Source: a virus
Length of the DNA stretch: 59,662 nucleotides
Virus record (IMG/VR): IMGVR_UViG_3300005976_000001
Coordinates: 1 to 59,662 of that record
Strand: one strand, 5' to 3'
The notes beneath the pieces are model-generated. The model was given only the letters and a program-made list of their open reading frames with translations. It was not told the DNA's origin and searched no databases. Position 1 is the first letter of the stretch; every line of letters begins with the position of its first letter. The position numbers and the translations under genes were made by a program. Below, piece by piece: positions 20,533 through 42,996 of the stretch.

Positions 20533-20572
20533 AGAGTATCAAACAATATAAAAGAAGTCAAACAAATTGTTT
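20533..20572 (-). promoter_or_regulatory. Sigma70-like leaderless promoter and palindromic operator for the HTH gene
   Basis: On the minus strand TTGACT (20556-20561) and TACTCT (20533-20538) are separated by 17 bases. Six bases lie between the -10 box and ATG 20526, so the expected start of transcription is the A of the ATG. A perfect palindrome AAACAA-A-TTGTTT (20560-20572) covers the -35 box and the end of the polymerase gene, a natural site for the encoded regulator. Promoter activity is inferred. Confidence 0.6.
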
Positions 20573-22421
20573 AAGTATTAGGTTTCTTCCCAGATGATAT
20601 GGCCCAGTTCTTTCCTACACCTACCTCGTCTACTACTCCGTTTAGCACAGCACCTGGAAGTATGTGAGAAAAAGCCTTGACCATACAGTTCTTAATAAGC
20701 GGTCGTAGTATCTTCTTATCTTCTAACCTGCCCTCAACAGTCACATCATCATGCACACACAGAACCGGATGAGCATCTAACTTATGCTTTCTAATTTCCC
20801 GGTCAATTAAAATGATAGCTACCTTAATACACTCAGCAGCACCACCTTGTACTGGTGTATTCATGGCTGCACCATAGGTATTGTCGTGTGCGAGTTTTCG
20901 TACCTTTCCATATGGAGTGATAGCTTTTAGAGTTCGTTTTGCATTCTCGTGCTGAAGCATTTGCCATTCATACACGTCATCGTAGAGCTCTCTCCATTTA
21001 TCTATATCTTCTTCTGCTTGCTCTAGTGCTATATCTGCACCGTAACTCTTTTTAGCGTAGTGAACATAAGTCCCAGCAGCCATACCGAACACCAGCCCAA
21101 AGTTAAAGCCCTTGCCAGCTTTTCTCTGCTCATCAGTTATCTGGTCATACGGAAGTCCAGATACCTTTGCAGCTGTGATCTTATGAATATCTTTTCCATC
21201 TCTAAATGCTTGGAGCATAGCGTCATCCATCGAGAGCTCGGCTAGAACACGCAATTCAATTTGAGAGTAGTCAGCACTGTAAAGAACTTTCCCTTTAGCC
21301 GGTAGAAAGAGGCTTCTAAAGTCGTAATCGTTCGGTGCGTTTTGAAGGTTTGGAACAGCACAGCTCATTCTACCAGTTGCTGCACCTTCAAGCTTAAAAT
21401 TTGGATGCAGTCTTCCGGTTGCTTCATTTACTTTAGATCTAAGGCTTACTCCGTATCCAGATGAGAGCTTCTTATATTTCTGCATTGCAGCAAACGGAGC
21501 TACAAAGTCTAAGTAGCTAAAATCAGCTAGAGTATGAGCATCAGTTTTTAGTATTCCTTTACCTTCTGTCCGAGGCCAGTATCTCAAAGTTTTTGTATCT
21601 AGCTTGGACAGTAACCAGTCTGACATAGTTTGGTTTGTTACCTTGCTTAAACCTGTAATCTTTATAACTTCTTTTTTACATTCATACAGCTGCTCTCGCC
21701 ACAGATGAAGCATCTTGTTATGCTTATCTATATCAAATCCAATACCAGTCATCTTCATTGTGGTAATAGGAATCTGACATTTTTTTACAAGTTTATAAGG
21801 CTTTAATAAATTGTGATTCTTTAGGCCCTGGGCCAGTACTTCTGCTAGCTTTAACACTATGATTGCATCTACAGCTGCGTAATGTACCTGCTCATAAGTA
21901 AGGTCTGGTACACTCCAGTCTGACTTTTGAGCTTCTTTAGGAATCTTAAACTTTAAGAACCCATCTACTAAGCTTTCTAAATTAAGAGCTAGTCCCTTTA
22001 AATTAGGCCTAGCTGCCTGAAAAATCATAGTAGCCATTAGCAGTGTGCAGTTCATGTCGATATCATGAACCCCCATATTACGAAGAAAATTTAACTCAAA
22101 GACTGCCCAGTGAGCTACGAACTTATGGCGTTTCATAAATTCCACTAAGAAGTCAGGCTCACCTATATGGTTAAAGTCTAAAACTAAAATAGATTTACCA
22201 TTAGATAATTGAGCTAGCCGGGGAATAGAGTACTGCGGATAAGTAGCGGCTTTAGGTATGTGTTTATATTTAGGAAGGCTTTGAGTTTCAAAATCGAAAC
22301 CAAATAAGCAGTCTTGTTTATCGTACTGCTCAATAGCTTTTATAGCAGTAGTGCGATCTTTAATGTAAAGAGTAGGGTACTTCTCCCCTAAAACATCTAT
22401 TGAAAAAGTACCCTCTCTCAT
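20571..22421 (-). CDS. Family A DNA polymerase with 3'-5' exonuclease
   Basis: 616 residues, T7/Pol I type without 5' nuclease. The DEDD proofreading domain has FGFDFETQS (Asp43, Glu45), an ExoII-like FVAHWAVFELNFL segment, and YAAVDAIIVL (Asp185). Polymerase motif A is DYSQIELR (384-391), motif B is RKAGKGFNFGLVFGM (433-447), and motif C is HDD (557-559). By alignment to E. coli Pol I the 762 position is Phe (Phe441) and the usual Tyr766 is Phe445. Replicates the phage genome with the neighbouring SSB-like protein and nuclease. Start overlaps the upstream stop as TAATG. Confidence 0.96.
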   Translation of the reverse strand: MREGTFSIDVLGEKYPTLYIKDRTTAIKAIEQYDKQDCLFGFDFETQSLPKYKHIPKAATYPQYSIPRLAQLSNGKSILVLDFNHIGEPDFLVEFMKRHKFVAHWAVFELNFLRNMGVHDIDMNCTLLMATMIFQAARPNLKGLALNLESLVDGFLKFKIPKEAQKSDWSVPDLTYEQVHYAAVDAIIVLKLAEVLAQGLKNHNLLKPYKLVKKCQIPITTMKMTGIGFDIDKHNKMLHLWREQLYECKKEVIKITGLSKVTNQTMSDWLLSKLDTKTLRYWPRTEGKGILKTDAHTLADFSYLDFVAPFAAMQKYKKLSSGYGVSLRSKVNEATGRLHPNFKLEGAATGRMSCAVPNLQNAPNDYDFRSLFLPAKGKVLYSADYSQIELRVLAELSMDDAMLQAFRDGKDIHKITAAKVSGLPYDQITDEQRKAGKGFNFGLVFGMAAGTYVHYAKKSYGADIALEQAEEDIDKWRELYDDVYEWQMLQHENAKRTLKAITPYGKVRKLAHDNTYGAAMNTPVQGGAAECIKVAIILIDREIRKHKLDAHPVLCVHDDVTVEGRLEDKKILRPLIKNCMVKAFSHILPGAVLNGVVDEVGVGKNWAISSGKKPNT

Positions 22422-23305
22422 TACAAGTCGTCTATAGCTACAGAGTTTAAGTCCTGGATGTCGTCATCATCGTCTTCATCCTCGTCTTCATCCTCCGCCT
22501 CTACTACTTCGACCTTCTGTTTGGCTTTAGCTTTTTTAGAAGTAGTCTTTTTCTTAACTACTTCTTTAGGAGCTTCTTCCTCTTCATCGTCTTCATCTTC
22601 ATCATCTTCTACCTCATCTTCATCTACCTCTTGAACAGCCTTTTTCTTCTTAGAGGTAACAGGAGTAAGCATCGACGCATAAGATTCAGGGCTAGCTCCA
22701 CCGGCAAAACGAGTACCGTCATCCTCAATAAACTGTATGATACGTGCTTTATAGCTTACACCGTGTGAAGTAAGCATAGGAGTTACAACCGCTGCAACTT
22801 CTACTCCTCCCACAATAACTGATGGATCGATTTGCTCTGTAGGGTCTTCCGGAGAGACGCACCGGATAGGTTTATAGCTCCGAACATTTAGTAACCACTT
22901 ATTCTCATAGAATGGATATTTTTCTGGGTCAAATCTATCAGAATCATCACCGTCTAAGAAAACATCTTCTACAGAAAGCTTTGTGCCTTTACCCTTATTA
23001 AAAAGTTCTTCCATCTGTTCAGCCATCTTTTCGATGTAGTCTTTGAACTTTTCTACAGTTGGGTCATCCTTATCTAATAAGTGAACATACTCGTATCGTG
23101 GAGCACCCGGCTCTTTGTCTGGGTCGTCACTCGGTGGTGGGTCTTTCGGCTCTACTAAGTACACAAAAGCTGCACGACCGGCAGGAATCGGAACATCCTC
23201 TCCATACACATGTCCATACTTTCTGTGTTTAGATACTCTAAACTCTAGCTTCTTAGCTGGAGCTTTTGCTGCTTTTTTTGCTTCTGACAGTTTTTTCTTT
23301 TTCAT
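22421..23305 (-). CDS. Single-stranded DNA-binding-like protein with acidic tail (DUF2815-like)
   Basis: 294 residues with a very basic N-terminus (KKKKLSEAKKAAKAPAKK), a beta-rich core with the segment VVTPMLTSHGVSYKARIIQF, and a long tail of alternating acidic and Lys-rich blocks (about residues 222-294, many Glu/Asp runs). An acidic tail is the hallmark of phage SSBs such as T7 gp2.5, and position between a Cas4-like nuclease and Pol A is where DUF2815 proteins sit in phage replication modules. The family assignment is inferred from this context and resemblance. It overlaps the upstream nuclease gene by 53 bases and has AAGGAA upstream. Confidence 0.65.
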   Translation of the reverse strand: MKKKKLSEAKKAAKAPAKKLEFRVSKHRKYGHVYGEDVPIPAGRAAFVYLVEPKDPPPSDDPDKEPGAPRYEYVHLLDKDDPTVEKFKDYIEKMAEQMEELFNKGKGTKLSVEDVFLDGDDSDRFDPEKYPFYENKWLLNVRSYKPIRCVSPEDPTEQIDPSVIVGGVEVAAVVTPMLTSHGVSYKARIIQFIEDDGTRFAGGASPESYASMLTPVTSKKKKAVQEVDEDEVEDDEDEDDEEEEAPKEVVKKKTTSKKAKAKQKVEVVEAEDEDEDEDDDDDIQDLNSVAIDDL

Positions 23306-24548
23306 CTGGTTTTTCCTTATTAGGTTTTTTAGTTAGTAAATCAGCAGGTGTTGTAGCTTCTGGTCTTGGGTCAGCAGCTGAAACAAGTGCTACAGTTGGA
23401 GCACCCGGTAAGATATACGGAGCCATCACATCTTTTCCGACAATAGCTTCTAGCTTGGTCATGGCTTTTAGTTTTTTATCATAGAGCTTCTCTTTCGGAA
23501 TTCCCTGTAGACTAAGCCCTTGTACTATCTCATCCTGGTCATCAATTAAGCTTCTGCGTCCTGACTTTTCTACCAGCTTTAGAAGCGGTAGAGGGTCGTT
23601 ATTTAAGTGTCTATCCATTGCATATGATTTGTGCTTATTAACCCAGTTGACTATCTCTTCTGAGTACAGAACTATCTTTGCTACTTCCTCATCAGTCCTG
23701 GATTCGGGTGCCGGTAATTGAATTTTTGAGGGGTCTTCTATCTTCTTTAGCCCAGTTATCTTAACTATTTCTTTTTTATATTCCGGACAGATTGCTTTTG
23801 CACTACAAAACCGGCACCAATCTCCAACTTTAAACTTAGCTTCTTTTTCAATATAAATTTTATGGGCGGTATCTAGTATTTTTTCTTCTAGTCTATCTAA
23901 CTGCTTTGCTGTAAATTTAAACTCTTCTGGTTGCTCTTCATCTTCAAGAGTACCCTGGAATATTCTCCCAATTACATAGTCTAAATCTTTTCCGAACCCC
24001 CTAATATAGTTTCTAAGACCGAGTGCATAGTAGCCTAGTTGAGGATTGTTGTTCGGATTTACTTTAACCCACCCAGATTTTAAATCTGTGATATCTCCCA
24101 CCCGCTCTCCTTTGTCTCCTTTGTATACTGTCCAGAAGTCTGCTTTTCCAAATAGATTTAAGTTTTTATGTAGCCAGAATTTAGTCTCAGTTCCGTACGC
24201 TTTTCCGGTTAGGTACTCTTGAAGTGGCACTCTCCATATAAAGTCAGTGTACCTTTTAGCAATTAGTACTGCATCATCGGAGTCGCTGCTGACTCCTTTA
24301 AACTTCATTCTTTTCTTTGGGTCTTTTCCGGTTCGCTTATATGTAAGAAAGTCATTTAGATACACTTCTGAAAAGTCGTGTATTAAAGAGCCTGAGTCTC
24401 TATTTTTATCTTTAGTTTTTTCTTGTGGAATTTTTCGTTTGAGAAATATAGACCCGGTACACTTAAATGCTACACCAATTACTGATCCACCTAGTTCTGA
24501 GTGTTCTTCGTTATTGTAAGCAGGGAGGAGCTCTTGTTTGTCTGACAT
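23253..24548 (-). CDS. Cas4/RecB-like PD-(D/E)XK nuclease with Fe-S cysteines (DUF2800-like)
   Basis: 431 residues. Nuclease core: GSLIHDFSE (His57), GKADFWT (Asp137), DITDLKSG (Asp155, Lys157) and a Gln170-Tyr motif (NPQLGYYALGL). One Cys before the core (Cys30) and three after it (Cys245, Cys248, Cys254 in WCRFCSAKAIC) match the four-Cys iron-sulfur cluster of Cas4, AddB and DUF2800 proteins. Probably an exonuclease processing ends in replication or recombination, acting with the SSB-like protein encoded next. The C-terminal 40 residues are a Lys/Glu-rich tail that overlaps the next gene. No clear ribosome site precedes ATG 24548. Confidence 0.8.
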   Translation of the reverse strand: MSDKQELLPAYNNEEHSELGGSVIGVAFKCTGSIFLKRKIPQEKTKDKNRDSGSLIHDFSEVYLNDFLTYKRTGKDPKKRMKFKGVSSDSDDAVLIAKRYTDFIWRVPLQEYLTGKAYGTETKFWLHKNLNLFGKADFWTVYKGDKGERVGDITDLKSGWVKVNPNNNPQLGYYALGLRNYIRGFGKDLDYVIGRIFQGTLEDEEQPEEFKFTAKQLDRLEEKILDTAHKIYIEKEAKFKVGDWCRFCSAKAICPEYKKEIVKITGLKKIEDPSKIQLPAPESRTDEEVAKIVLYSEEIVNWVNKHKSYAMDRHLNNDPLPLLKLVEKSGRRSLIDDQDEIVQGLSLQGIPKEKLYDKKLKAMTKLEAIVGKDVMAPYILPGAPTVALVSAADPRPEATTPADLLTKKPNKEKPDEKEKTVRSKKSSKSSS

Positions 24549-24626: not shown

Positions 24627-25520
24627 TCACCATCCCCATGCTAGATTTAAGCTACCGAAACTATGAGAACTTCCCTGCTCCCACTCTTTTGTAGCTCTGT
24701 TCCAGATATAAACAAGACGGTATCCTTTGTACTCTAAGAAGGCTCCAAGATGTAACTCAGTGATAGCTCTCTCGGAACCAGGTTGCGGGTACTGATGATT
24801 ACTCCTAAAAAAGCTTCCATCAAATAATACATTATGCCCTACTATCTTATATGTAGTGCCTGTAAACAGAAAGAATCTAAAAGGACTACCCGGAGAGTCC
24901 ACTTGAATTGATTGCGGTGTGAATGTTTTTGGTAAGTTTACTCCTATCCGGTATAGTACTCTCCCACTTACCTGCATGATATCTGTTCCAATGTCTGCTC
25001 TAGCAGATGTAATTACATCCCCATTATAGTTACCAATACTAACCGGAACAGATAAGAATTGCCTCTCTGCTAGCCCTGCAATCACCGGCTCGTCTTTAAG
25101 TTGAGTTCCCCACCCTCTTGGGTCAGTGCCTAAGCCTATATCATTATGAACAAACTTTTGAACATCTTCTCCTTTAGCACATGGTCCGATGCACCCTACT
25201 CTAATACCCCACTGGTCTATTTTATTGTCTTTAGTATAGTACTTTTGGTACGTACCAGTGAGAGATGCTGCGTACCCTCTATCTCCTGGTTCCGGCTCGT
25301 CTGTTCTTAAGTTATCCGGAGTATACATCTTATGAGCTATAGCGTAACTCTCAGATACTGATTCTGTTATATCCTTACCGGCCCGAACAATGAGGCCTTG
25401 AGTATAATTAGCGTCTTTATTCTTATCTACTTTAAAGAAGTCATTTTCTTCGTAGATGTCATACCTGTACCCGGAACAAGCAGCCAGACTACACAGTAAT
25501 ACTATTAAAAAAGTCTTCAT
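24627..25520 (-). CDS. LpxR-like lipid A 3'-O-deacylase (outer-membrane)
   Basis: 297 residues. The N-terminus is a lipoprotein-type signal with LAAC at residues 12-15. It has the LpxR (DUF2219) pattern: EENDFF (Asn26, Asp27), NYTQG (Thr40), a GDRGYAASL segment equivalent to the family's RPYAG, then KFVHNDIGLGTDPRGWGTQL with His125. Those Asn, Asp, Thr and His residues correspond to the catalytic residues of Salmonella LpxR. LpxR is a 12-stranded outer-membrane barrel that removes the 3' acyloxyacyl chain from lipid A, which would alter the phage receptor and outer surface. A phage-encoded copy is unusual. It overlaps the GT-B gene by 32 bases. Activity is inferred. Confidence 0.83.
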   Translation of the reverse strand: MKTFLIVLLCSLAACSGYRYDIYEENDFFKVDKNKDANYTQGLIVRAGKDITESVSESYAIAHKMYTPDNLRTDEPEPGDRGYAASLTGTYQKYYTKDNKIDQWGIRVGCIGPCAKGEDVQKFVHNDIGLGTDPRGWGTQLKDEPVIAGLAERQFLSVPVSIGNYNGDVITSARADIGTDIMQVSGRVLYRIGVNLPKTFTPQSIQVDSPGSPFRFFLFTGTTYKIVGHNVLFDGSFFRSNHQYPQPGSERAITELHLGAFLEYKGYRLVYIWNRATKEWEQGSSHSFGSLNLAWGW

Positions 25521-26253
25521 GCCCTTTTACCCATGTCTCCCATGTAGGTACATTCGACAAGTCAAAGAGAACCTGTCTCAAATCACGAACGTCACCTTTC
25601 TTGTATTTTACTACAGGATACTCCCAACACCACCCCACATCTGGTGCTATTACAGGAACACCCATTGAAAGGGCTTCCACAACCGGGACAGGTCCTCCCT
25701 CACATGTCGATGTAACAACTAAATAATCAATTTTATTATAAAAGTTCTCTAGCTCGGATTGCTTTTGAGAGTGTATTTCACACGGCCAGCCCTTCCCCCA
25801 CGCCAAGAACTTATATTCTCCCATTAACTGCTCTACAAAAGCTTCTCCTTTTCGTCCTGATTGAGTATGTACTTTACCGCATACCCCGAACACTAAATCT
25901 TTTTTAAATCTGCTTCCAGGCTTAATAACATGAGCGTTTTTCTTTCTCTTAAACAAATCTTTCTGAGTAGTTGAGTTCATACAAATATGATAGTCACAGT
26001 ACTCTACTACTTCTATAAATTTTCTCTTCTTTTTCTTACAAAAATCACTACTCCCTGTTTCCAAGTGTGTAAAGAATCCTACTTTTATTTTAGCTTTAGA
26101 GGATTTAGCACAGGTGTACGGTAAGAAGTATTCAATGTCGCAGTCCGGGTTGTCTATGTTCACGTTAGAGAAAGCCTTTGTAAGCTCTAAAGCGCACCGC
26201 TTCATGATCCAGTTATGTGATTCTGTCTTAAGAGATATTTTTAGATGATCCAT
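25489..26253 (-). CDS. GT-B (GT4-like) glycosyltransferase
   Basis: 254 residues, shorter than a full two-domain GT-B enzyme (usually 350 or more). The C-terminal half carries the nucleotide-sugar signature STCEGGPVPVVEALSMGVPVIAP, an E-x7-E motif of GT4 retaining enzymes. The N-terminal half has only a weak first Rossmann domain. Coupled upstream by TAATG to a GT-A gene and overlapping the LpxR-like gene downstream. Predicted to transfer a sugar to a surface glycan or a phage-modified acceptor; the substrate cannot be read from sequence. Confidence 0.75.
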   Translation of the reverse strand: MDHLKISLKTESHNWIMKRCALELTKAFSNVNIDNPDCDIEYFLPYTCAKSSKAKIKVGFFTHLETGSSDFCKKKKRKFIEVVEYCDYHICMNSTTQKDLFKRKKNAHVIKPGSRFKKDLVFGVCGKVHTQSGRKGEAFVEQLMGEYKFLAWGKGWPCEIHSQKQSELENFYNKIDYLVVTSTCEGGPVPVVEALSMGVPVIAPDVGWCWEYPVVKYKKGDVRDLRQVLFDLSNVPTWETWVKGHEDFFNSITV

Positions 26254-27068
26254 TAGTACTTATTCCCATTACAGTAGTAGTCCACCATCTGACAGAAATA
26301 AGTATTAGCGGGTTGTAGGTCGTTGTTAATTATATGGTAGCCCTTTAGAACTATTTCTGGTATCTGGTCACAGTACTTATTGTAGTCATCTTTATAGTCC
26401 TCGTCTCTAATGCTTCTAAATCTACCTAAGTGTAGACCGTGAAAGTATAGCTCCTCTCTCCAGCTACTGCTCCGTTCCGGTAATCCAATACCGGCTTGCA
26501 CTACCATATCGTACAGTGAGTACTCACAGCTCATCTTCGGATTAGCTATTGCTTTCTCTAAGATAGCCTCTTTATTCTTCTCTATAACTGGTCCTACTGT
26601 TTTGTACCAGTTCTCTGAATCGTAAAAATGTAACCCACCTAATCTGTTTTCTGGGTGCTTTAATACGTTGTGGTAGTACAGCCCTCTTTTTACCATATGC
26701 TCTACATGCATTGAAACCAGCGGATGAGTAGACGTAATCTCAGCCGGGTCTTCTTTGCATATTATTATATCAATGTCACCTACATAGATGTATTTAAAGT
26801 CATCATACAGTTCAGGACGGTGTACCCATCTCTGAGTCTTTACGTAGTTTTTGTTTCCGGGAACTCTAGGAAACGCATTGCTTATAATTGCTACATTTTT
26901 AGCATTTATCTCTACAAGAGCTTTCTCTACTCTACTATCAACAGAGCAATCAAGAGATAGAATTATCTTAGAGTGTGGGTACACTCTATTTATCCCAAGT
27001 ACGTACCACGGAATAAACGATTGATATTCTTTACTAACACAAGTTGCAAAAGCCAGTAGTTCTCTCAT
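26253..27068 (-). CDS. GT-A-fold glycosyltransferase
   Basis: 271 residues, no membrane segment. The sequence YIYVGDIDIIIC contains a DxD metal-binding motif, and the N-terminal segment IILSLDCSVDSRV is a typical donor-binding strand. The C-terminal part (YFHGLHLGRFR) resembles acceptor regions of GT8-like or polysaccharide pyruvyl/glycosyl enzymes. Its start overlaps the previous stop by 4 bases and its stop overlaps the next start (TAATG). Operon placement suggests joint action with the other three transferases on the same glycan. Confidence 0.65.
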   Translation of the reverse strand: MRELLAFATCVSKEYQSFIPWYVLGINRVYPHSKIILSLDCSVDSRVEKALVEINAKNVAIISNAFPRVPGNKNYVKTQRWVHRPELYDDFKYIYVGDIDIIICKEDPAEITSTHPLVSMHVEHMVKRGLYYHNVLKHPENRLGGLHFYDSENWYKTVGPVIEKNKEAILEKAIANPKMSCEYSLYDMVVQAGIGLPERSSSWREELYFHGLHLGRFRSIRDEDYKDDYNKYCDQIPEIVLKGYHIINNDLQPANTYFCQMVDYYCNGNKY

Positions 27069-27769
27069 TCTTTTTCCTTTTCGTATGCCCTAAGTGGGCC
27101 AAGCCATGCTCGTCTCAGCCAGCTGTGCCTTACATTCCAAGGCTTATACTTTCCGTGAAACATAATTACACAGCAGTTTCTTGGTGGTTTGCGTCTTCTT
27201 TTTATATCTAAGCTGTAAGAGTAGATACCCTCTTCTTTGCCCCAGGTAGTTTCCCCTTCTCCTAGCCTATAGCTAATCCACGCCTGGTCTGTGCCGGGAA
27301 ACTCTTTTGCCTCTTCTCTAGACTCTTGTCCTTTAAAATCTCTCCAGAGTTGAGTGCGTGTGCCAGTCTTATGTAGTATCAATCCTCCCTGATAACGTAC
27401 TGTAGAGCCCTTATTCCACGCTATAAATTCTTCTTCTCTAGTTAGTAGGTGATCGATATTTCTAAAGATGACAACATCTAAATCTATCATTAGTACTTTA
27501 GAGCCAAATAACTTGGTTGCTAAGTGAGAAAATATTTCTAATCTTCTGTAGCAGTTTAAGTATAGACCATCCCCTAACTCTATGTCACTCCACGTACCCC
27601 ATAGTGGAAGAATCTCACCATACTTAACACCAGTCGGGTCATCAGTCACACAGATAAATCTAAACGGCACTGTCGTATGCTTTTTAAGCATACAGTACAA
27701 AGCATTTACGTGCTCTGAAGTGTACTCTCTAAAGTCAGACTTCCATTTAAAAGTTACTATTGTTATCAC
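27065..27769 (-). CDS. GT-A-fold glycosyltransferase, paralogue of the gene at 31704-32369
   Basis: 234 residues. MITIVTFKWKS, VPFRFICVTDDPTG and KVLMIDLDVVIF (DxD) define a GT-A fold transferase of a type common in phages and capsule loci. LWGTWSD, YRRLEIFS, GTDQAWISYRLG and VMFHGKYKPW occur in the same order in the second paralogue about 4 kb upstream in the operon. The conserved HGKxKPW-type end is probably an acceptor or metal loop. Two paralogues within one operon suggest successive transfer steps or two acceptors. Confidence 0.75.
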   Translation of the reverse strand: MITIVTFKWKSDFREYTSEHVNALYCMLKKHTTVPFRFICVTDDPTGVKYGEILPLWGTWSDIELGDGLYLNCYRRLEIFSHLATKLFGSKVLMIDLDVVIFRNIDHLLTREEEFIAWNKGSTVRYQGGLILHKTGTRTQLWRDFKGQESREEAKEFPGTDQAWISYRLGEGETTWGKEEGIYSYSLDIKRRRKPPRNCCVIMFHGKYKPWNVRHSWLRRAWLGPLRAYEKEKE

Positions 27770-28010
27770 TCTTTAATATCTTTTCTAAAGTAGATCCACT
27801 GGTTACATAAAACTCATCTGGGATTTTCTCGTGCATGTGCTTGACTACCATCTCCATCATTTCTCTAAATCTAGTAGTATCAAACGTCTCATCAACAATA
27901 ACTATATCTCTGTTTGTTCTCCAGAGGTTTTTACCTACATCGAAATAAGTAGTAGTCGAGAGTGCGGCTACTCCGATACTTAAGTTTCTAATAAACTGCC
28001 TACGGTCCAT
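27747..28010 (-). CDS. Small Tat-signal-like exported protein
   Basis: 87 residues beginning MDRRQFIRNLSIGVAALSTTTY, a twin-arginine type signal (RRQF followed by a short hydrophobic core), then a soluble domain of about 60 residues ending in KILKSDNNSNF. Tat export means folding in the cytoplasm, often with a cofactor, before transport. Function unknown; the helical mature part has several Met and His residues (MMEMVVKHMHEK) that could bind metal. Start overlaps the zinc-ribbon stop (TAATG) and the end overlaps the next gene by 23 bases. Confidence 0.6.
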   Translation of the reverse strand: MDRRQFIRNLSIGVAALSTTTYFDVGKNLWRTNRDIVIVDETFDTTRFREMMEMVVKHMHEKIPDEFYVTSGSTLEKILKSDNNSNF

Positions 28011-28315
28011 TAAAACCCCTGCTCTCTTCCGCAGTTAACGCACATTACAAATTTCTGAGTCACTATAAAGAACACACCACCACACTGGCACTCCCATATA
28101 GGAACATCTTCTGGGGGAGCAAAGAAGTTTTTAAATGTTCCAAAGTTTAGATGGCACTTTGGGCACTCAAAAACTTCCGAGTCACTCTCTACCGGGCGAA
28201 CTGCATGCCACTCGTGCTTACACTTCATACAAACTGCTTTGCCTTCTGCGTGTGGTTCTGTTTCTTGTTGTTCGTCTTTTTTAAAAGGAAGAACTTTGCA
28301 ATCTTTATCTTCCAT
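28010..28315 (-). CDS. Zinc-ribbon protein
   Basis: 101 residues from ATG 28315; a GTG three codons upstream is possible, but the ATG overlaps the subtilase stop (TAATG), as in other junctions of this operon. Four CxxC or CxC-type knuckles are visible (CMKC, CPKC, CQCGG, CVNC), compatible with two small zinc ribbons. Zinc ribbons occur in transcription factors and nucleases. The cytoplasmic location contrasts with its exported neighbours. Function unknown. Confidence 0.6.
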   Translation of the reverse strand: MEDKDCKVLPFKKDEQQETEPHAEGKAVCMKCKHEWHAVRPVESDSEVFECPKCHLNFGTFKNFFAPPEDVPIWECQCGGVFFIVTQKFVMCVNCGREQGF

Positions 28316-29655
28316 TATCTGCACTTACAATTTGTTTGTTCTCTTAGTAGTCGTCTGCACTTTCTAGGTCTTGGCTCTCCTCTACAAGATGAGCGTATAC
28401 TTACAAATTCGTCCCACCTGCATGGCTCTGGTAGAGTCCACCCGGAACTATCAGCTGCAACCATGTTCTTATTTACTACCAGTCTGTCTCGGATATCACT
28501 AGAGCTTTTATCTGGTTCATGGCTCCATAGATAGGCTGCAATCCCTGCTACAAGTGGTGTTGCCATACTGGTTCCAGATATAGACCTATATCCGTTATCG
28601 TGCCAGGTGGATAACATATTAGTTCCCGGTGCAAACACATGAACAGGTTTGCCATAGTTTGAGAAATAAGCTCTCTTACCATTTTCTTTGTTCGCTCCTA
28701 CTGTGATAGCAGAACTGCCGCTAAACTTTGCTGGCCAGTAGGACTTGTGGTCTAAGTTTAGATTAGAGTTTCCAGCTGCAATAGCTGCTAGGATACCTTG
28801 CTCTCCTGACTCTTCTAATGCGTCCTCAAGCGGTTTGGAGTATCCAGCAGAACCAAATGATGCGTTTAGTATTACTCGTTGTTCCGGGTTTTGCTGTGCC
28901 CAGGCTGTTACCCAATCAATAGACTTTACAGCTCCTAGAGTTGACCCGGACCCATTAGCTGCTAAGAACTTTACAGGCAATACTGGGATACCAAGTGATG
29001 GGCTCTGAATCCCTACATCATTACCGGTAGTAGCACAGCATAGTCCTGCAACGTGTGTTCCGTGCCCGTTGTCATCGTGCCATGTAGTTCCACTTACAAA
29101 TGACTTACCTGGCAATACATTTAAATCGGGGTGGTTTGGTGCTACTCCGGTATCTACCACTGCAACAACTACTTTTCCTGCACCTTGTCCGTGTCTCCAC
29201 ATCTTAGCCACATTTACAGCGTCTAAGTACCACTGCTGAGCTCTTAATGGTCCTTCTGTTTTATAGAAAATGTTCGGCCCACAAGACACGCTATCAGATT
29301 GTACTACCGGGCAATCAGCTAATGTGCTCATTTCATCTATTACAGATAGTGACCTGTGAGTATTTTCTTGCTCGCTGTCTAGTACTCTTCCATCTTTAGT
29401 CACCAGGTACGTTCCGGGAGAATGGACGGTGGTTGCTTGTTGGGTAGGTCCACCTGGGCAGAACTTATTTTTATTCTCTTCTGTGAGATTAGAATAAGAT
29501 GTACCGTAACAGGGGCTATAGACTTGCCACTGGCCTTTTGCTCTTACGACATACTCGTTTTCATAGACTATAGTTTCTGCACTAGCGTAGAAAGCACAAG
29601 TAAATGCTACAAGAAGAGATACGACTAAGGCACAGTAGAATGTAGATAGTTTCAT
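28315..29655 (-). CDS. Secreted subtilisin-like serine protease (S8 family)
   Basis: 446 residues with a strong signal peptide (residues 1-26, cleavage near ASA-ET), AAGGAG upstream, and the complete S8 catalytic set: VVDTG with Asp168, NGHGTH with His198, the oxyanion Asn296 in AAGNSN, and GTSMATP with Ser363. Residues 27-140 may be a propeptide and contain several Cys; the C-terminus is Cys/Arg-rich (possible disulfide knot). Exported subtilases are rare in phages. It could trim an exported phage protein or a host surface protein. Its stop overlaps the next start. Confidence 0.9.
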   Translation of the reverse strand: MKLSTFYCALVVSLLVAFTCAFYASAETIVYENEYVVRAKGQWQVYSPCYGTSYSNLTEENKNKFCPGGPTQQATTVHSPGTYLVTKDGRVLDSEQENTHRSLSVIDEMSTLADCPVVQSDSVSCGPNIFYKTEGPLRAQQWYLDAVNVAKMWRHGQGAGKVVVAVVDTGVAPNHPDLNVLPGKSFVSGTTWHDDNGHGTHVAGLCCATTGNDVGIQSPSLGIPVLPVKFLAANGSGSTLGAVKSIDWVTAWAQQNPEQRVILNASFGSAGYSKPLEDALEESGEQGILAAIAAGNSNLNLDHKSYWPAKFSGSSAITVGANKENGKRAYFSNYGKPVHVFAPGTNMLSTWHDNGYRSISGTSMATPLVAGIAAYLWSHEPDKSSSDIRDRLVVNKNMVAADSSGWTLPEPCRWDEFVSIRSSCRGEPRPRKCRRLLREQTNCKCR

Positions 29656-29922
29656 TTATTCTCCTTCATATGGTTCTGGTTCTATATATGCTGCGTATGC
29701 TATGAATTTATGAGTTCTTGGGATACCATAACCTTGCTCATCTTCAAACCCTGAATCAGAACCTCTCCAGTACAGGGAGTCAACATACCTATTTCCTTTC
29801 AAGTCCTCACAAGTCACCCAAAATCGCTCTCCAATATTAATCTTATCATCTGTCGGTAGTTCGTTTAGTTCCCAGCTATACCATAAACTCTTTTTAATTT
29901 TTAATTTTTGTTTTCTGCCCAT
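29656..29922 (-). CDS. Small hypothetical protein before the subtilase
   Basis: 88 residues, AAAGGA-type ribosome site, ends one base before the subtilase start. Trp- and Tyr-rich (WYSWELNELP, VTCEDLKGNRYVDSLYWRGSDSGF) and acidic overall with a basic N-terminus (GRKQKLKIKK). No signal peptide and no known family. Its tight spacing suggests coupled translation with the subtilase, so a partner or inhibitor role is a possibility only. Confidence 0.5.
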   Translation of the reverse strand: MGRKQKLKIKKSLWYSWELNELPTDDKINIGERFWVTCEDLKGNRYVDSLYWRGSDSGFEDEQGYGIPRTHKFIAYAAYIEPEPYEGE

Positions 29923-29972
29923 TGTTTTTCCTTTTCTAAAAGCCCCACCCGGCTAAAGGCAGGGGTAAGGGT

Positions 29973-30243
29973 TTATTTGAACCGCTCTAAATCTTGCCTG
30001 AGGTCTTCAGCCTGCATTTTCATAGCTACCTTTTCATCCTCTTTCTGCTTGTCGTATATAGCCTTTATTCTTCCTTCCTCTTCCCCATAAGAGAGTAGTA
30101 TGTCCTGAACCCTATCTGCTACTGCCGATTTAGTAGCGCAAAAAAAGAACCCGGTTAGAGTCTAGTGACATAGGATACGGACCGGGAATATTTGTATTAT
30201 AGCGAATCACCCATCCATTCTCTATCGTCTCAATTGTCATCAT
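29973..30243 (-). pseudogene. Frameshifted small gene (about 89 aa if restored)
   Basis: An AAGGAA site precedes ATG 30243. The first frame (MMTIETIENGWVIRYN...) runs 37 codons and stops at 30130-30132 just after a run of seven T. In the frame obtained by dropping one T, coding continues with CATKSAVADRVQDILLSYGEEEGRIKAIYDKQK and ends at TAA 29973, where the composition looks like real protein. The length of 271 bases is one more than a multiple of three. Either a homopolymer sequencing error, a true inactivation, or slippage on the T-run. Confidence 0.65.
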
Positions 30244-30257
30244 CTCATCTTTCCTTT

Positions 30258-30275
30258 ATAAAAGCCCCGTGGGGC
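30258..30275 (-). terminator. Short GC hairpin with T-run
   Basis: On the minus strand GCCCC-AC-GGGGC is followed by TTTTAT. It lies between the 181-residue gene and the frameshifted gene and may be a weak intrinsic terminator or attenuator within the operon. The loop would be only two bases, so one pair probably opens. Confidence 0.35.
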
Positions 30276-30297
30276 GTGTTAAATTATTGTGGTTTTT

Positions 30298-30843
30298 TTA
30301 TTTAGTAGCCCTAGTCCGTATCTTTCTCCAAATCTCTTTTAAGCCGCCGTCTGATTGTGGGCGGTGGATTGCTTCTGTGTCGTGAGGGATAATCTTACCG
30401 TAGAGATTTTTATCTGAGCCGCGTGGATGCCTAAATTCTAACAAATCCGTTGGCTGTATCGCAGGCATAGGATTACCATCCGGCTTTAGCTCTTGGAGTA
30501 TCGCTTCTTTTACTTGTTGCCATGTGAACCCGTAGTAGGAGAGAGGTAGCGTAGGGGTCATCTCCTCGGTGTTTGCTTGATTATCAAATTCTATATAACC
30601 CCAATCGGTGTATATAGTTTCTCTACCCTTCACATCTTTAGCGCTATTGTTCTCAGCTAATTCCAGCAGCCACTCTTTAGGGTCCACATCATCGGAAAGT
30701 ATGACCGTGTAGGTCTGTAGAAGATGTCTGCTAGCAGTATCTGAAGAGATTCCAAAAGTGACTATGTTATACAGAAAAGTAGAAGTAAATATTCTAAAAC
30801 AGTTTCCACCAACTTCGACTTTAACTAACTCATCCATATTCAT
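30298..30843 (-). CDS. Hypothetical protein
   Basis: 181 residues, no membrane segment or signal. Mixed alpha/beta with Trp/Tyr-rich patches (IYTDWGYIEFDN, YYGFTWQQVK) and a basic C-terminus (KEIWRKIRTRATK). Start overlaps the upstream stop by 4 bases. No family recognised. It lies among genes of the cargo region. Confidence 0.5.
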   Translation of the reverse strand: MNMDELVKVEVGGNCFRIFTSTFLYNIVTFGISSDTASRHLLQTYTVILSDDVDPKEWLLELAENNSAKDVKGRETIYTDWGYIEFDNQANTEEMTPTLPLSYYGFTWQQVKEAILQELKPDGNPMPAIQPTDLLEFRHPRGSDKNLYGKIIPHDTEAIHRPQSDGGLKEIWRKIRTRATK

Positions 30844-31295
30844 TTTCTACTCCACACTTCAACTAGTCTGTGATTTATCGGTTCGTATATAGCAACTATG
30901 TCATCACCTAAACTTTCCCGTGCTTCTATCGCATCTCTCCAAGGGTTATTAGCCCCATCTAAAAGGAGCCTTTGTGCTGATTCAAGAAATTCAGGCATCG
31001 GATTATCTACTTGTTCCGCACTATTTTTCTTCATACCTTCAATCCCACCCCTACGAATCCAGGTGTTAACTCTATGTACCGACCCGTGAGCAGCAGCTGG
31101 ACATGCCCAGTTAAGCCAGTTAATTATGTCTCCCATCCTCTCTAAGTTATGTCTGTCTGCTTTACAGTATGCCTCTATCAGCTTGCCTGATAATGCGGCT
31201 TTACAAAAACCTCCAGGTTCCACTCCCTTCTCAATGTAGAGCTTCATTCCTTCTTGTATGTGATCCGGTAATAGGTTGTAATCAATTGGTCTCAT
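30840..31295 (-). CDS. CP..GS-motif hypothetical protein, paralogue of 32396-32809
   Basis: 151 residues with AGGAG before ATG 31295. Shares with the 137-residue protein at 32396-32809 the pattern LPDHIQ...YIEKG, ALSGKL...YC, then NWLNWACPAAAHGSV...W near residues 20-90. This type of protein (small, acidic, ending its conserved part with CP-x(3)-GS-x(5)-W) is common in phages but of unknown function. An unrelated 181-residue gene follows with 4-base overlap. Confidence 0.6.
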   Translation of the reverse strand: MRPIDYNLLPDHIQEGMKLYIEKGVEPGGFCKAALSGKLIEAYCKADRHNLERMGDIINWLNWACPAAAHGSVHRVNTWIRRGGIEGMKKNSAEQVDNPMPEFLESAQRLLLDGANNPWRDAIEARESLGDDIVAIYEPINHRLVEVWSRK

Positions 31296-31320
31296 ATATG
31301 AAGTCTCCTGCTAGTTTAAG

Positions 31321-31707
31321 TTAGTTATAATCTTCACCAGTAAATCTTCTCCGGCACTCATCGATCTGCTCAATGTACCCAGAATAGAGAACTTGTGGTT
31401 CCGGATGGCACCCACAAAACACTCGAACATCTTCTAAGTACAGCTTCTCTCTATATCCGGTAACATGCCCGTTAACGTATAAGCCGATGTTTATGTAGTC
31501 GCTTGGGCCGACTACTATCCCGTCTAGCTCTTCTGTAGGAACATCGTACTCGTTGCAGTACTCATGAATATAAATCAATATGACGTGAACTACCGATATA
31601 TCTATATCAGTTAGTATAGAGACCTCATCTTCTGGCATATCATCTAAATTAGGCACTGAGGCATCCCTTGCTCTTAGTATCCTGTCTGTTACTTTCGGAT
31701 ATTTCAT
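31321..31707 (-). CDS. Hypothetical protein
   Basis: 128 residues from ATG 31707, chosen because it overlaps the stop of the upstream glycosyltransferase as ATGA and has GGAGAG eight bases before it. The longer frame (to 31728) lies within the transferase gene. Acidic, with a central beta-rich part (DISVVHVILIYIHEYCNEYDVP, then IGLYVNGHVTGY) and a Cys pair. No family recognised. Confidence 0.5.
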   Translation of the reverse strand: MKYPKVTDRILRARDASVPNLDDMPEDEVSILTDIDISVVHVILIYIHEYCNEYDVPTEELDGIVVGPSDYINIGLYVNGHVTGYREKLYLEDVRVFCGCHPEPQVLYSGYIEQIDECRRRFTGEDYN

Positions 31708-32369
31708 CTGTAATGCTCTCCGGCCCAACGCTCTTTTATCTGCCAGGGTTTTGGATTACCATGAAACATAACAATTTTAACTTTAGAGTCTAGAAAAGAA
31801 ACCCCTCTTAAATCTTGCTTGTATGAGTAGATTCCATCTGCTTTAGTCCAGGTCTCCTCATCCCGTCCCAGCCTATAGCTAATCCACGCTTGGTCACTTC
31901 CCGGATACATAGCTGCTCTTTTAGGGCTTTCAACCGGGTCGAACTCATCCCAAATAAACGCTCTACTACCCGGCTTATGTAAAATAATTCCACCTTGATA
32001 AGGAAGTAGCCCCTTGTGCCACGCTATAAAATCCTCATCACGGTTAACTAGGTGGTCAATGTTGCCTGTGATAATAGTGTCTAAGTCAAGAGATAGGATT
32101 TTCTCACCTAGCAGTTCTTTTGCTTCACGAGAGAACATCTTTAGTCGCCTATAAGAGTTTATCTTATGAGCATTCATCTCTACTTCTGGGTCATCCCAGA
32201 GCGGTACAGTGCGTACCTCTTTATCTATCTTGGTTGGATTATCTGTCACACAGACATGCCTAAACGGAACGGTTAAATGCCGTTTAAGCATGGAGTGTAA
32301 TTTATTTACGTGATAAAAAGTATACGGCCTATTAACTGACCGCCACTTCCAACTTACTATTGTAACCAT
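31704..32369 (-). CDS. GT-A-fold glycosyltransferase, second paralogue
   Basis: 221 residues. MVTIVSWKWRS, VPFRHVCVTDNPTK, KILSLDLDTIITGN with a DxD, and SDQAWISYRLG and KIVMFHGNPKPW toward the end align, in order, with the transferase at 27065-27769. Gene duplication and divergence within one operon. The N-terminus has no signal, so it acts in the cytoplasm, perhaps building a glycan on lipid carrier or on a phage protein. Donor and acceptor unknown. Confidence 0.75.
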   Translation of the reverse strand: MVTIVSWKWRSVNRPYTFYHVNKLHSMLKRHLTVPFRHVCVTDNPTKIDKEVRTVPLWDDPEVEMNAHKINSYRRLKMFSREAKELLGEKILSLDLDTIITGNIDHLVNRDEDFIAWHKGLLPYQGGIILHKPGSRAFIWDEFDPVESPKRAAMYPGSDQAWISYRLGRDEETWTKADGIYSYKQDLRGVSFLDSKVKIVMFHGNPKPWQIKERWAGEHYR

Positions 32370-32395
32370 GTGGGGATTACTTCTAAAAGTGGTTG

Positions 32396-32809
32396 TTACT
32401 TAGTAGCGCCGTTCTTTTGTGATTCAGCTTTTAAGACGTTTGCTTGAAGCACCAGCCCGGTTAGTCCTTTATTTAAATTCCACCGGGTCATCTTCTCGTG
32501 AGAGCCGTACATGGCTCCAGGACATGAGTTAGTTATCCAACCGGAAGTAGTATATGCGTCTCTAATCTCATCTACAGTAGAGCAAAAACGAAATACACCA
32601 GATAGTGAATCTGAGATTATGGCTTGTAAGTATTCGTTTGGTAGAGTTCCATCTTCAACATACGCTTGAATCTGCTCTCTAACTCTTTCTGGGACACCTT
32701 CATAGTTTAATTGAGGCATCTCGGCTAGTAGAGCTTTTTTAATCTTCTCGTCTTTTTTCTTTTTTAGTTCGTCTTCTGTAGGTACTTTTACCTCGTTAGT
32801 GTCTTCCAT
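32396..32809 (-). CDS. CP..GS-motif hypothetical protein, paralogue of 30840-31295
   Basis: 137 residues, AGGAG site. After a charged N-terminus (KKKKDEKIKK) it carries VPERVREQIQAYVEDG, AIISDSLSG, and SCPGAMYGSHEKMTRW, matching the first-listed paralogue. It precedes the second GT-A gene, whereas its paralogue follows it, so a gene pair (CP..GS protein plus transferase) may have been duplicated or the proteins may be partners of transferases. Function unknown. Confidence 0.6.
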   Translation of the reverse strand: MEDTNEVKVPTEDELKKKKDEKIKKALLAEMPQLNYEGVPERVREQIQAYVEDGTLPNEYLQAIISDSLSGVFRFCSTVDEIRDAYTTSGWITNSCPGAMYGSHEKMTRWNLNKGLTGLVLQANVLKAESQKNGATK

Positions 32810-32818
32810 CTGTTTCTC

Positions 32819-34135
32819 CTAGTCATGTCGTTTGCACGGGTCAGACCCGCCAGTTAAAATTAGAGTCATGTTACCGAGAGTGCAATAGGTTTTAGGGTCC
32901 CGGTAAGCATCACACTTATAATTTGCTCGATAGGTTAACCTATCTGGATTGCTTAAGCACTTAAAATCGTTCCAAGGGCCTTTAACGCATCTAAAATTAT
33001 CCCAAGCTCCTGATTTTCTTTGAGACTTACACTCTAGAAATTCAGTTTGATAGGCATTTCTAATTAGTACTACCGGATTGCCATCAGATTCAGATACCGG
33101 CTTCCATAAATTTCCGGCTCCCCAACTCTCTACTACTGTGTACGGTTGTCCCGGTTCGGGAGAGTCTCCAAAGATAATATTCATCATAGCTTGATGCTCA
33201 AGTGGGGTCGGACAGTTTGTGCGTGAACGTGGCGGGATAAAAGGACCCGGAACTCTACAGTTAAACATCCAGCCCCAGTTAAAAGCGAGTCCTACACTAG
33301 AGTTTGCTACATTGCTCTTCCATGTTGGAATGTGAACTTCACTTACATCTTGTCCATCAAGAGAGTTTATATTTGCTGCAAAATCAAATGTACCGTGATG
33401 AGCCTCAAATAAAACTCCAGCTTGTGGGTGTGATGGAAACTCGTGAGAGTTTTCCGGGTTGTTAACTATATAGTAATCATTTCTATCACAAGTAGCTCTT
33501 AGCTCATCGTACAGTACATTCCAAGCAGACACGGTTAGATTATGCTCTAACATTGGAGACATATAGAACCGCACATCTGAGTATTGGTCCATCCGAACAC
33601 AAAATGCTCCAATCCAAACTCTGTATGGAGCTAGAATAGATTCATCCCGGTTAGTAACAGCTTCATTAAATGATTGAACTGTATGACCGTACCCAATCTC
33701 GTATGGTTGTAGCTGAGAGTTTCTAAGGCCCGGACCATTTAACCCCAAGTGAATACGTATATGACTTACTTTTCCACTTCCAAGAGCTAAATCAACTGGA
33801 GACATCGAATCACCAAATGAGTTTGCGAGCATCCCAACCGGGATTCTTGTACCAACTGGTATTAGCTCTAGAGCAGCTCCTAGATTAAAAGATGGGTGCT
33901 GCAAAGCTAGCCAGTCTTGCCCATACTCGGCAATAGTTGGTAAGTCCGGCTTTGTTGGAGCTGGTGCCGGGTCGCTCCCTTTAAACCAAGAGCACCCTAC
34001 AACGTGTGAGAGAAAGTATAAAAAGAGAATTAAAAGTATTAACCGGAAGATAAATTGCACCGGAGAGAGCTCTTTGTCATTTCTTTTACCTTCTACAATA
34101 CTTTGAACCGGGTCGTAAAATGGATCACCACTCAT
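32819..34135 (-). CDS. Lipoprotein-like exported protein, Cys-rich
   Basis: 438 residues. Residues 26-45 are a strong hydrophobic segment preceded by a charged region and followed by VVGC (Cys48), an acceptable lipobox. The rest is a large extracytoplasmic domain with many Cys toward the end (CRVPGPF, then a Cys-rich tail of about 60 residues) and a Trp/Asn-rich core (AFNWGWMFNCRVPG). Nothing visible identifies an enzyme. Localisation in the envelope is supported by the signal segment; the role is unknown but fits the envelope-acting cargo of this operon. GGAGTG precedes the start. Confidence 0.6.
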   Translation of the reverse strand: MSGDPFYDPVQSIVEGKRNDKELSPVQFIFRLILLILFLYFLSHVVGCSWFKGSDPAPAPTKPDLPTIAEYGQDWLALQHPSFNLGAALELIPVGTRIPVGMLANSFGDSMSPVDLALGSGKVSHIRIHLGLNGPGLRNSQLQPYEIGYGHTVQSFNEAVTNRDESILAPYRVWIGAFCVRMDQYSDVRFYMSPMLEHNLTVSAWNVLYDELRATCDRNDYYIVNNPENSHEFPSHPQAGVLFEAHHGTFDFAANINSLDGQDVSEVHIPTWKSNVANSSVGLAFNWGWMFNCRVPGPFIPPRSRTNCPTPLEHQAMMNIIFGDSPEPGQPYTVVESWGAGNLWKPVSESDGNPVVLIRNAYQTEFLECKSQRKSGAWDNFRCVKGPWNDFKCLSNPDRLTYRANYKCDAYRDPKTYCTLGNMTLILTGGSDPCKRHD

Positions 34136-34138
34136 ATA

Positions 34139-35704
34139 CTACACTCCATAATCTAACTGATTTGGTTTAATATTTTTTAAGAACTTATCTGTCTCTTCTT
34201 TTGAGCGCTCTTGTGGTGCGTCTGGGCTATCCGGGTTAGCTAAAAGAGTCTTAAACTCAGCAGCACGTTTGATGACTGCTTTTGTTACTTTCTCGTCAAT
34301 ACTATCTTTAACAACAAAAGAGTAAATTATTACTGGCTTTGTCTGTCCTCGTCTGTGACTTCTATTTGTTGCTTGAGCAACCACTGCCGGGCTCCAGTCA
34401 TACTCAGCTAAAAGAACAACACAAGCTCTAGTAAGAGTGATACCTTCTCCAGCTGCTCTTAGATTACCGATAAATAAATCAGTCTCTCCAGATTGAAGCT
34501 TTTCTACCTCTTTAAATCGTGCAGTGTTAGCAGTTGCTCCAGTTATGATTGCCGGATTATACTTTTTTAATCCTTTAGCAAGAAGTGCAATAAGACTCGT
34601 ATGATGAGCAAATATAGTACACGGTATGCCAGCTTCTAGCTGTTCTTTTGCAAACTCTATAACAGCCGGTGCTTTTAGTAGCCCTTGCTCTTTTCTATGT
34701 GTTGCAGCTGCTTTTGGAACTATTAACTCTTTTCCCTCATCTAACTGAGCAAGTACACGTTCAATATCTGCTAGTAGCTCTGCTTGACTTACCTTAGCTT
34801 TCTCTTTTAGAGATAGCTCTTTTGGTAAGTAAATTGTCTGCCAAGTTTTTGGTGGTAATTCTTTTGCAAGCTCTTCTTCAGTTATAGCTGTAAAGAAATT
34901 GTCATACATTATCTTGTTTAGAATTTCCTCGTTCTTAGTTCCGGTATAGATAATGCCAAATCCGTTAGATTTCTTATTTGAAAAGTACTCTACAAAATTA
35001 TAATAGTTCTGAAACTTAGAAGAGAACTTGCCTAAGTCTATTCCTTGGAGCATTTTATTTACCCACGGATAGATATCAGATGTACCAATCCTGTACGGTG
35101 TACCAGAAAGAGCTATTTTATACTTTGCAAAGTCCCAGATGCTGTGAGTTTTCACACCGGCACGGCGGCGAGCACCTAAATCACCTAACATAGATCTAGT
35201 TCTCTTTGCTTTTCTATTCTTATAAGCGTGTGCTTCATCTACAATTAAGCAGTCATAGAAGTTAGAAGTGAGAACTGAAAACGTTTTCTCTCTATGAATC
35301 GCGTCATGACCGCAGATAACTATAACTGGAGATACTGAACTATCGTTGTGAGCTCTGTTTACTTTATCTACTACTTTCTTATTAAAGTGAGCACCTTTTG
35401 AGCATACAATAACTTCATACTCTCTTGTTGCCCACTCTTTAATCTCAGCTTCCCAGGTTAACCGCACCGATGCCGGACACACTATTAATACTGTCCTAAA
35501 GCGCATAAAGTCTATAACAGCAATAGATTGAATAGTTTTACCTGCTCCCATGTAGTCACCTACATACGCACAGTTGTTTGGATTGTCCCTAAGAAACCCC
35601 AGTGCATTCTTAATTGAGCGCTTTTGAATTGGGAAGAGATGGCCCGGAAGGCCTTTCTTTGGTTTCTTCTTACCTATAGTTGCAGAGTCAGAATTGTTTG
35701 GCAT
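34139..35704 (-). CDS. SNF2-family DNA helicase/translocase
   Basis: 521 residues. Superfamily 2 motifs in order: VGDYMGAGKT (Walker A, residues 48-57), VDEAH (motif II, 155-159), ALSGTPYRIG (motif III), GNLRAAGEGITLTRA (motif V) and QATNRSHRRGQTKPV (motif VI). Length is that of compact phage SNF2 proteins without accessory domains. It probably remodels protein-DNA complexes or forks. It opens the leftward operon and has its own promoter whose -10 box lies six bases before the ATG, so the mRNA is probably leaderless. Confidence 0.92.
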   Translation of the reverse strand: MPNNSDSATIGKKKPKKGLPGHLFPIQKRSIKNALGFLRDNPNNCAYVGDYMGAGKTIQSIAVIDFMRFRTVLIVCPASVRLTWEAEIKEWATREYEVIVCSKGAHFNKKVVDKVNRAHNDSSVSPVIVICGHDAIHREKTFSVLTSNFYDCLIVDEAHAYKNRKAKRTRSMLGDLGARRRAGVKTHSIWDFAKYKIALSGTPYRIGTSDIYPWVNKMLQGIDLGKFSSKFQNYYNFVEYFSNKKSNGFGIIYTGTKNEEILNKIMYDNFFTAITEEELAKELPPKTWQTIYLPKELSLKEKAKVSQAELLADIERVLAQLDEGKELIVPKAAATHRKEQGLLKAPAVIEFAKEQLEAGIPCTIFAHHTSLIALLAKGLKKYNPAIITGATANTARFKEVEKLQSGETDLFIGNLRAAGEGITLTRACVVLLAEYDWSPAVVAQATNRSHRRGQTKPVIIYSFVVKDSIDEKVTKAVIKRAAEFKTLLANPDSPDAPQERSKEETDKFLKNIKPNQLDYGV

Positions 35705-41153: not shown

Positions 41154-41182
41154 AGTTTTCCTTATTGATGTTTGTTGCTTGG

Positions 41183-41233
41183 ATTAAAATAATCCTCAAT
41201 CCGGGCTTGCAACCCGGATCAAGCATTATTTTA
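41183..41233 (-). repeat. Stop-associated hairpin repeat, type I copy 1
   Basis: On the minus strand AAAATAAT...ATTATTTT form an outer stem and ATCCGGG...CCCGGAT an inner stem around loop TTGCAAG, with a 5x5 internal loop between them. The stop codon TAA of the gene ending at 41226 lies in the outer stem, and the core ATGCTTGATCC follows. Confidence 0.75.
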
Positions 41234-41666: not shown

Positions 41667-41714
41667 AGTTCTACCTCTTAGTTTGTTGTTTGTTTTAGTT
41701 AACTAGTGCATTAA

Positions 41715-41876
41715 TTATTTAAAGTAAGGAAGGGTTAAGTTTGTTGTTTTCATTTTCTCGGTGTCATAGTTATATGCCGCTATTGTGAAGGCTATCACTC
41801 CAACAGAGATAATTGAGATTAAAACAAAGAGCGCAATGGGTAGCACCGGTTTTAGTTTTTTATTTAATTTGTTCAT
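41715..41876 (-). CDS. Small single-span membrane protein
   Basis: 53 residues from ATG 41876 (AAGGAAAACC upstream). An in-frame ATG at 41950 within the upstream hairpin is judged not used. Basic N-terminus followed by one hydrophobic segment (VLPIALFVLISIISVGVIAFTIAA, about residues 11-34) and a short polar tail, so probably inserted in the inner membrane with N inside. Function unknown. Confidence 0.5.
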   Translation of the reverse strand: MNKLNKKLKPVLPIALFVLISIISVGVIAFTIAAYNYDTEKMKTTNLTLPYFK

Positions 41877-41907
41877 TTTGTGGTTTTCCTTGTTGTTTGT
41901 TTGGACT

Positions 41908-42994: not shown

Positions 42995-42996
42995 TG

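Follow-up and report, generated by a model that had tools for sequence, protein, structure and literature searches.

A variable replication-operon slot in a new phage group holds a lipid A deacylase gene and candidate envelope-modifying enzymes

Introduction

Phage-encoded modification of lipopolysaccharide (LPS) is known from P22, Sf6, BTP1 and Kapi1, and exclusion has been proposed or shown as the benefit of phage seroconversion loci (PMC8787464, PMC4413052). Here we analyse a gene cassette of an uncultured bacterial virus that combines a lipid A 3'-O-deacylase of the LpxR family with several glycosyltransferases and an exported protease, at positions 24627-34135 of the IMG/VR virus record IMGVR_UViG_3300005976_000001 (positions 1-59,662; hereafter the window). 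The closest described loci, namely P22 gtrABC, BTP1 gtrC and the O-antigen modification genes of Kapi1, resemble it in being phage genes that alter LPS sugars. However, they are lysogenic-conversion genes of temperate phages and include no lipid A enzyme, whereas the window cassette has no homologue of GtrA or GtrB. A known gtr operon was rejected as an explanation, as no cassette protein matched either family in Pfam, PHROG or NCBIfam.

The LpxR proteins of Salmonella Typhimurium and Yersinia enterocolitica (PDB 3fid) share with the window copy the full-length PF09982 domain and five residues essential for activity (PMC3486919). The window copy differs from them in being phage-encoded, in having a lipobox in place of the ordinary signal peptide and in carrying a cysteine pair (C110/C114), and it groups apart from the sampled cellular LpxRs. 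A phage-borne gene already annotated as LpxR is found in Escherichia phage 434 (OL657226, OL657227), but there it is a stand-alone gene beside Q in a lambdoid phage, with no adjacent glycosyltransferases, and its product is 24% identical to the window LpxR. Finally, the phages represented in phrog_1962 (S20, EBPR siphovirus 3, P1 PmgQ) encode homologues of two cassette transferases, the nearest two with 35-43% identity, whereas in the window these genes are duplicated and lie in the replication operon with LpxR. A first-pass annotation of this DNA did not recognise the combination as a named system. What is new is the combination of genes, the lipobox and the swapping slot, while phage LPS modification itself is known. 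We found no report of LpxR in virulent or metagenomic phages in the open-licence literature.

The reading that we favour, and to which we give an even chance, is that the phage belongs to a new group, apparently of virulent phages, whose replication operon has a variable slot for enzymes acting on the envelope of the infected cell.

Results and discussion

A phage LpxR with intact essential residues and a lipobox

The LpxR-like protein proposed from the sequence at first reading proved to be a genuine family member, as PF09982 matches nearly the whole protein (residues 12-297, E=3.6e-53, 181 bits against a curated cut-off of 26) and PDB 3fid is matched with E=5e-9. Tested in E. coli, the Yersinia LpxR mutants N9A, D10A, S34A, Q118A and H122A no longer deacylate lipid A (PMC3486919). 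All five positions (N9, D10, T/S34, Q118 and H122) have their counterparts in the window protein (N26, D27, T40, Q121 and H125): Q121, H125 and T40 align with residues 118, 122 and 34 of 3fid, and N26/D27 form the conserved ND pair, which is kept in all three virus LpxR copies. Because every residue essential in the Yersinia enzyme (PMC3486919) is present, the window LpxR is expected to be active. The GT4 protein, both GT8-like proteins and the protease described below likewise keep their catalytic residues or motifs; a lack of catalytic residues in the LpxR-like and transferase proteins is what the first-pass annotation had named as evidence against its proposal.

The short signal before the first barrel strand is of the lipobox kind rather than the ordinary kind, and is a perfect lipobox in both the window LpxR (LAAC-S, C15) and the LpxR of a related phage, G002 (LAGC-S), 9-11 residues before the catalytic Asn; the assignment to the LpxR family is unaffected. 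Among some 84 other LpxR homologues, which came from the phyla of genomes G030 and G031, from Verrucomicrobiota and Syntrophaceae and from two other phages, a single protein has a lipobox match at the same place, and its VINC looks more like an ordinary signal. The enrichment in the two phage LpxRs gives a Fisher p of 8e-4, to be read with the possibility that the two copies are not independent. The C110/C114 pair is also common to both. In a tree, the LpxRs of the window, of G002 and of the viral contig L046 form one clade (95/93), all on long branches, and when L046 and the longest rows are removed the window and G002 copies still pair (93/91). The L046 copy had been located with patterns built from the other two. 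A virus-only LpxR lineage is suggested by these groupings.

LpxR is present in 48 of the 195 sampled genomes of the phylum of G030 and in 23 of the 198 of the phylum of G031. Cultured phages almost entirely lack it: among 50,697 phage records, tblastn with three different queries found it in two, both of them phage 434, in a type of search where a single query misses more diverged copies. A single-protein pattern search of viral contigs found no LpxR, and a two-member alignment then found L046; none was present in 20 contigs found via PolA, many of which are fragments. The L046 gene (L046:7938-8900) belongs to a clearly different type of phage with a portal-like gene, and lies near a transposase-like gene.

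The slot recurs with different genes in related phages

Scans with replication and structural alignments identified four relatives that are almost whole, namely G001 (60 kb), G002 (63 kb), G025 (61 kb) and G026 (58 kb), which have in common with the window an 811-amino-acid (aa) protein, a 616-aa protein, the terminase, the large internal virion protein and the replication proteins. Their variable slot lies between the helicase and the structural genes, and few slot genes are shared. In G001 it holds GT92, GT2 and GH5, along with a reprolysin-like protease that probably has a signal peptide. In G002 it holds a fusion of GT2, methyltransferase and GT9 (the heptosyltransferase family), a separate GT2, a papain-like protease and an LpxR gene that crosses the contig end, and in G026 a GT92-methyltransferase, a GT2 and a papain-like protease. 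The position of LpxR also differs, as it precedes the exonuclease gene in the window and closes the replication operon in G002. In the slot of G025, a 486-aa protein (L084:5918-7378) reads like a GH-A glycoside hydrolase and has no Pfam match.

Glycosyltransferases are thus encoded in four of the five genomes and LpxR in two, by slot genes that are mostly not homologous. A variable slot that recurs with transferases, and sometimes with LpxR, supports selection for modification of the host surface, whether of a glycan or of LPS. The same slot could instead be a tolerant site where accessory genes with no function in common form a loose collection, as would fit its high variability, its several unrecognised open reading frames (ORFs) and the few genes common to relatives. 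However, the recurrence of the two enzyme types, though mostly through non-homologous genes, speaks against such a collection, which we regard as distinctly unlikely.

Three recognisable glycosyltransferases

Four glycosyltransferases had been claimed, of which one GT4 protein and two GT8-like proteins stand, while the third supposed GT-A protein (26253-27068) matched nothing searched. The GT4 protein matches PF00534 with E=4.2e-8 (33.3 bits against a cut-off of 26.4), and its C-terminal nucleotide-sugar domain carries the E-x7-E motif (E185, E193). Its best PDB match, a weak one (E=3.6e-4), is WaaB, the LPS 1,6-galactosyltransferase, an outer-core enzyme. The two GT8-like proteins (27065-27769 and 31704-32369) are paralogues with 49% identity and intact DxD and HGxxKPW motifs, and both match the glycosyltransferases of phrog_1962 (Table 1). 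Because their PF01501 (GT8) scores of 14.9 and 13.8 bits fall below the Pfam cut-off of 24.3, we name them GT8-like only. A search of 20 virus contigs, related or LpxR-bearing, gave no relative of the GT8-like protein. LPS outer-core transferases fall in GT4 and GT8, and the cassette transferases are without signals, as are the cytoplasmic enzymes of the LPS core.

No counterpart of the 271-aa protein 26253-27068 was found when it was compared with Pfam, PHROGs, NCBIfam and PDB sequences or with phages, plasmids and viral contigs, and it does not resemble the GT8 profile. Its only GT-A hints are a DID motif and an HGxHLG stretch, the AlphaFold single-sequence model (pLDDT 38) is too poor for use, and its assignment as GT-A is a guess.

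These transferases might instead decorate phage proteins, with LpxR and the subtilase as independent accessory genes. Phage S20 lends some weight to such virion glycosylation, as its close GT8-like homologue adjoins head and tail genes, and a distant relative, P1 PmgQ, is annotated as a putative morphogenesis protein. Yet the S20 neighbourhood also holds genes annotated as sialyltransferases, the window and its relatives keep their genes in the replication operon, apart from the structural genes, and LpxR cannot act on virions. We judge virion glycosylation improbable, on a par with the loose collection. Two further candidates were rejected: a role of the transferases in glycosylated DNA, since a thymidylate-synthase-type gene is absent from the window and all four relatives, and lysogenic conversion, since none of these five genomes has an integrase match. 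Both readings are weakened by these absences.

Signal-peptide protease, Tat-like protein and the 438-aa family

The signal-peptide protease of the S8 family is confirmed by PF00082 (E=1.8e-41) and by the likeness to subtilisin Carlsberg (E=1.7e-42), and the triad D168, H201 and S363 and the oxyanion N264 are all present. Two other claims of export fared less well. The 87-aa protein has an RRQFIR start of the twin-arginine translocation (Tat) type, but its TIGR01409 score of 15.5 bits falls short of the cut-off of 16.7; no phage relative of it was found. The lipoprotein-like 438-aa protein does have a transmembrane segment with VVGC, but the cysteine, C48, comes only after a long extension of the N-terminus. 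Of the protein's four homologues, three have a signal-less start, leaving apparent export in only two of the five phages.

All five genomes have a member of the 438-aa family. Compared directly, the window protein and those of G001 and G002 give an unconvincing 0.019, and the G025 homologue bridges them (E=3.5e-7). No Pfam or PDB match was found for the family, and the AlphaFold model of the window protein (pLDDT 40) is too poor for use. The EH, NNP, HG and DG blocks and the alternating strand-helix pattern of this poor model prompt the guess of a (beta/alpha) barrel. The two small paralogous proteins 30840-31295 and 32396-32809 flank the GT8-like gene 31704-32369.

The lipidated LpxR, the exported protease and the 438-aa family could together serve exit, by weakening the outer membrane at lysis and replacing or supplementing spanins, with the transferases unrelated. 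Besides the transglycosylase domain of a virion protein, no endolysin, holin or spanin is recognisable in the window, nor is a lysis cassette; the 438-aa family occurs in each of the five genomes, and LpxR would be lipid-anchored, like the outer-membrane subunits of spanins. However, lysis genes are frequently too diverged for recognition, the cassette genes are grouped with replication genes and not late genes, and LpxR is restricted to two of the genomes. We consider an exit aid unlikely.

How the cassette might act on the envelope

Envelope modification would proceed as follows. LpxR would be exported, probably lipidated at C15 judging by the lipobox, and would enter the outer membrane and take the 3'-acyloxyacyl chain off lipid A, while the cytoplasmic GT4 and GT8-like transferases would modify LPS or another surface glycan, by adding or changing sugars, before its export, and the secreted subtilisin would trim envelope proteins. 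Gene identities, intact motifs, the place in the operon and the recurring slot are observed, whereas export, lipidation, substrates, timing and benefit are inferred. Co-expression with the replication genes would alter the surface ahead of the emergence of progeny, and the main benefit would be that the infected cell and the progeny are shielded from further adsorption. Judged from sequence, superinfection exclusion appears the most likely benefit, ahead of help in lysis, virion glycosylation and a mixed bag of functions.

Several points weigh against envelope modification. The acyl chains that LpxR targets do not usually serve as phage receptors. The GT8-like proteins score below the Pfam cut-off, and their nearest solved relatives are a Skp1 transferase and glycogenin. 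In the slot of G025 a papain-like protease is present but no transferase is recognised, and the papain-like proteases of G002, G025 and G026 have no signal peptide. The proposal that the cassette rewrites the host surface, made at first reading, keeps its support from the intact enzymes and the recurring slot, but one transferase, the Tat signal and lipoprotein export are weaker than claimed, and the purposes it put forward, a block on adsorption by other phages or the release of progeny from receptor debris, are conjectural.

A bolder version holds that a virus LpxR lineage turned outer-membrane lipoprotein is a dedicated tool for rewriting lipid A in lytic infection, for exclusion or exit, and that it works with swappable transferases in a new phage family that has a slot for surface remodelling; this is tentative, and we rate it well below the favoured reading. 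The LPS changes known from phages are mostly sugars or acetyl groups added by temperate phages. If envelope modification is true, a lipid A deacylase made with the replication genes of a virulent-looking phage would mean that phage editing of LPS extends to its membrane anchor, in a cell already doomed, and two ideas become testable by single genes: the exclusion of competitors in lytic growth, and exit through an outer membrane softened by enzymes.

Genome setting and operon context

The window begins and ends with the same 123 bases and is therefore a complete phage contig, circular or terminally redundant, of about 59.5 kb. Matches in a PHROGs scan include tail fibres, a Holliday junction resolvase, PolA, a gp2.5-like single-stranded DNA-binding protein (SSB), exonuclease, helicase, primase, an internal virion protein with the transglycosylase domain and a weak terminase match; no tRNA genes were found in the window. 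From the LpxR-like gene to the last gene, the cassette ORFs lie where the first-pass annotation placed them, all on the minus strand, between the helicase and exonuclease genes (Table 1).

That annotation had also described the genes as overlapping and coupled. This is true of 29922-24627, where the gaps at successive junctions are 0, -10, -1, -23, -4, -1 and -32, but spacing is looser upstream of that block. Because every junction within it overlaps or abuts, the 5.3-kb block is probably co-translated. A 375-nucleotide gap at 29923-30297 breaks the gene chain, and 78 nucleotides separate the cassette from the exonuclease gene. The best promoter-like site, at 35740-35711, lies by the helicase gene, in a window where the number of such sites is not above chance. 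Another contig has the same junction between the helicase gene and 32819-34135, with 100% identity, an argument against misassembly at this point.

Table 1. Genes of the cassette and of the adjoining replication operon
Position	Strand	Feature	Basis
34139..35704	-	Helicase, upstream of cassette, first gene of operon	PHROGs
32819..34135	-	438-aa transmembrane/lipobox protein, unnamed family; EH, NxP, HG, DG motifs	Alignment of five phages
32396..32809	-	137-aa ORF, unrecognised	
31704..32369	-	Second GT8-like glycosyltransferase; DLD 95, HGNPKPW 203	phrog_1962, E=1.5e-18
31321..31728	-	135-aa ORF, unrecognised	
30840..31295	-	ORF, unrecognised; paralogue of 32396-32809	
30298..30843	-	ORF, unrecognised; overlaps 30840-31295	
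29656..29922	-	88-aa protein, function unassigned; abuts subtilase gene	
28315..29655	-	Exported S8 subtilase; signal peptide, Cys-rich tail	PF00082, subtilisin Carlsberg
28010..28324	-	Small zinc-ribbon protein	Weak zinc-ribbon matches only (Pfam, PHROGs)
27747..28010	-	87-aa protein with RRQFIR Tat-like start	TIGR01409, marginal
27065..27769	-	GT-A (GT8-like) glycosyltransferase; DLD 96, HGKYKPW 205	phrog_1962, E=1.3e-13
26253..27068	-	271-aa orphan, GT-A uncertain; DID at 98-100	DID motif, HGxHLG stretch
25489..26253	-	GT-B glycosyltransferase, GT4 family, 254 aa; E-x7-E motif E185/E193	PF00534
24627..25520	-	LpxR-family lipid A 3'-O-deacylase of 297 aa; LAAC lipobox (C15) in a short signal	PF09982, PDB 3fid
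23253..24548	-	Exonuclease gene	
20571..24548	-	Replication genes downstream of cassette: PolA, gp2.5-like SSB, exonuclease	PHROGs

Elsewhere in the window, an ArdA antirestriction protein is encoded at 41953-42429 on the minus strand (PF07275, E=3e-25). Long direct repeats (103 nucleotides at 91% and 70 nucleotides at 90%) lie in 42978-43673 and 41169-41960, a gene-poor region with a GC-skew change that is a possible origin or regulatory region. The tail fibre gene at 105-1607 (plus strand) contains a collagen-like repeat with a period of 18 nucleotides.

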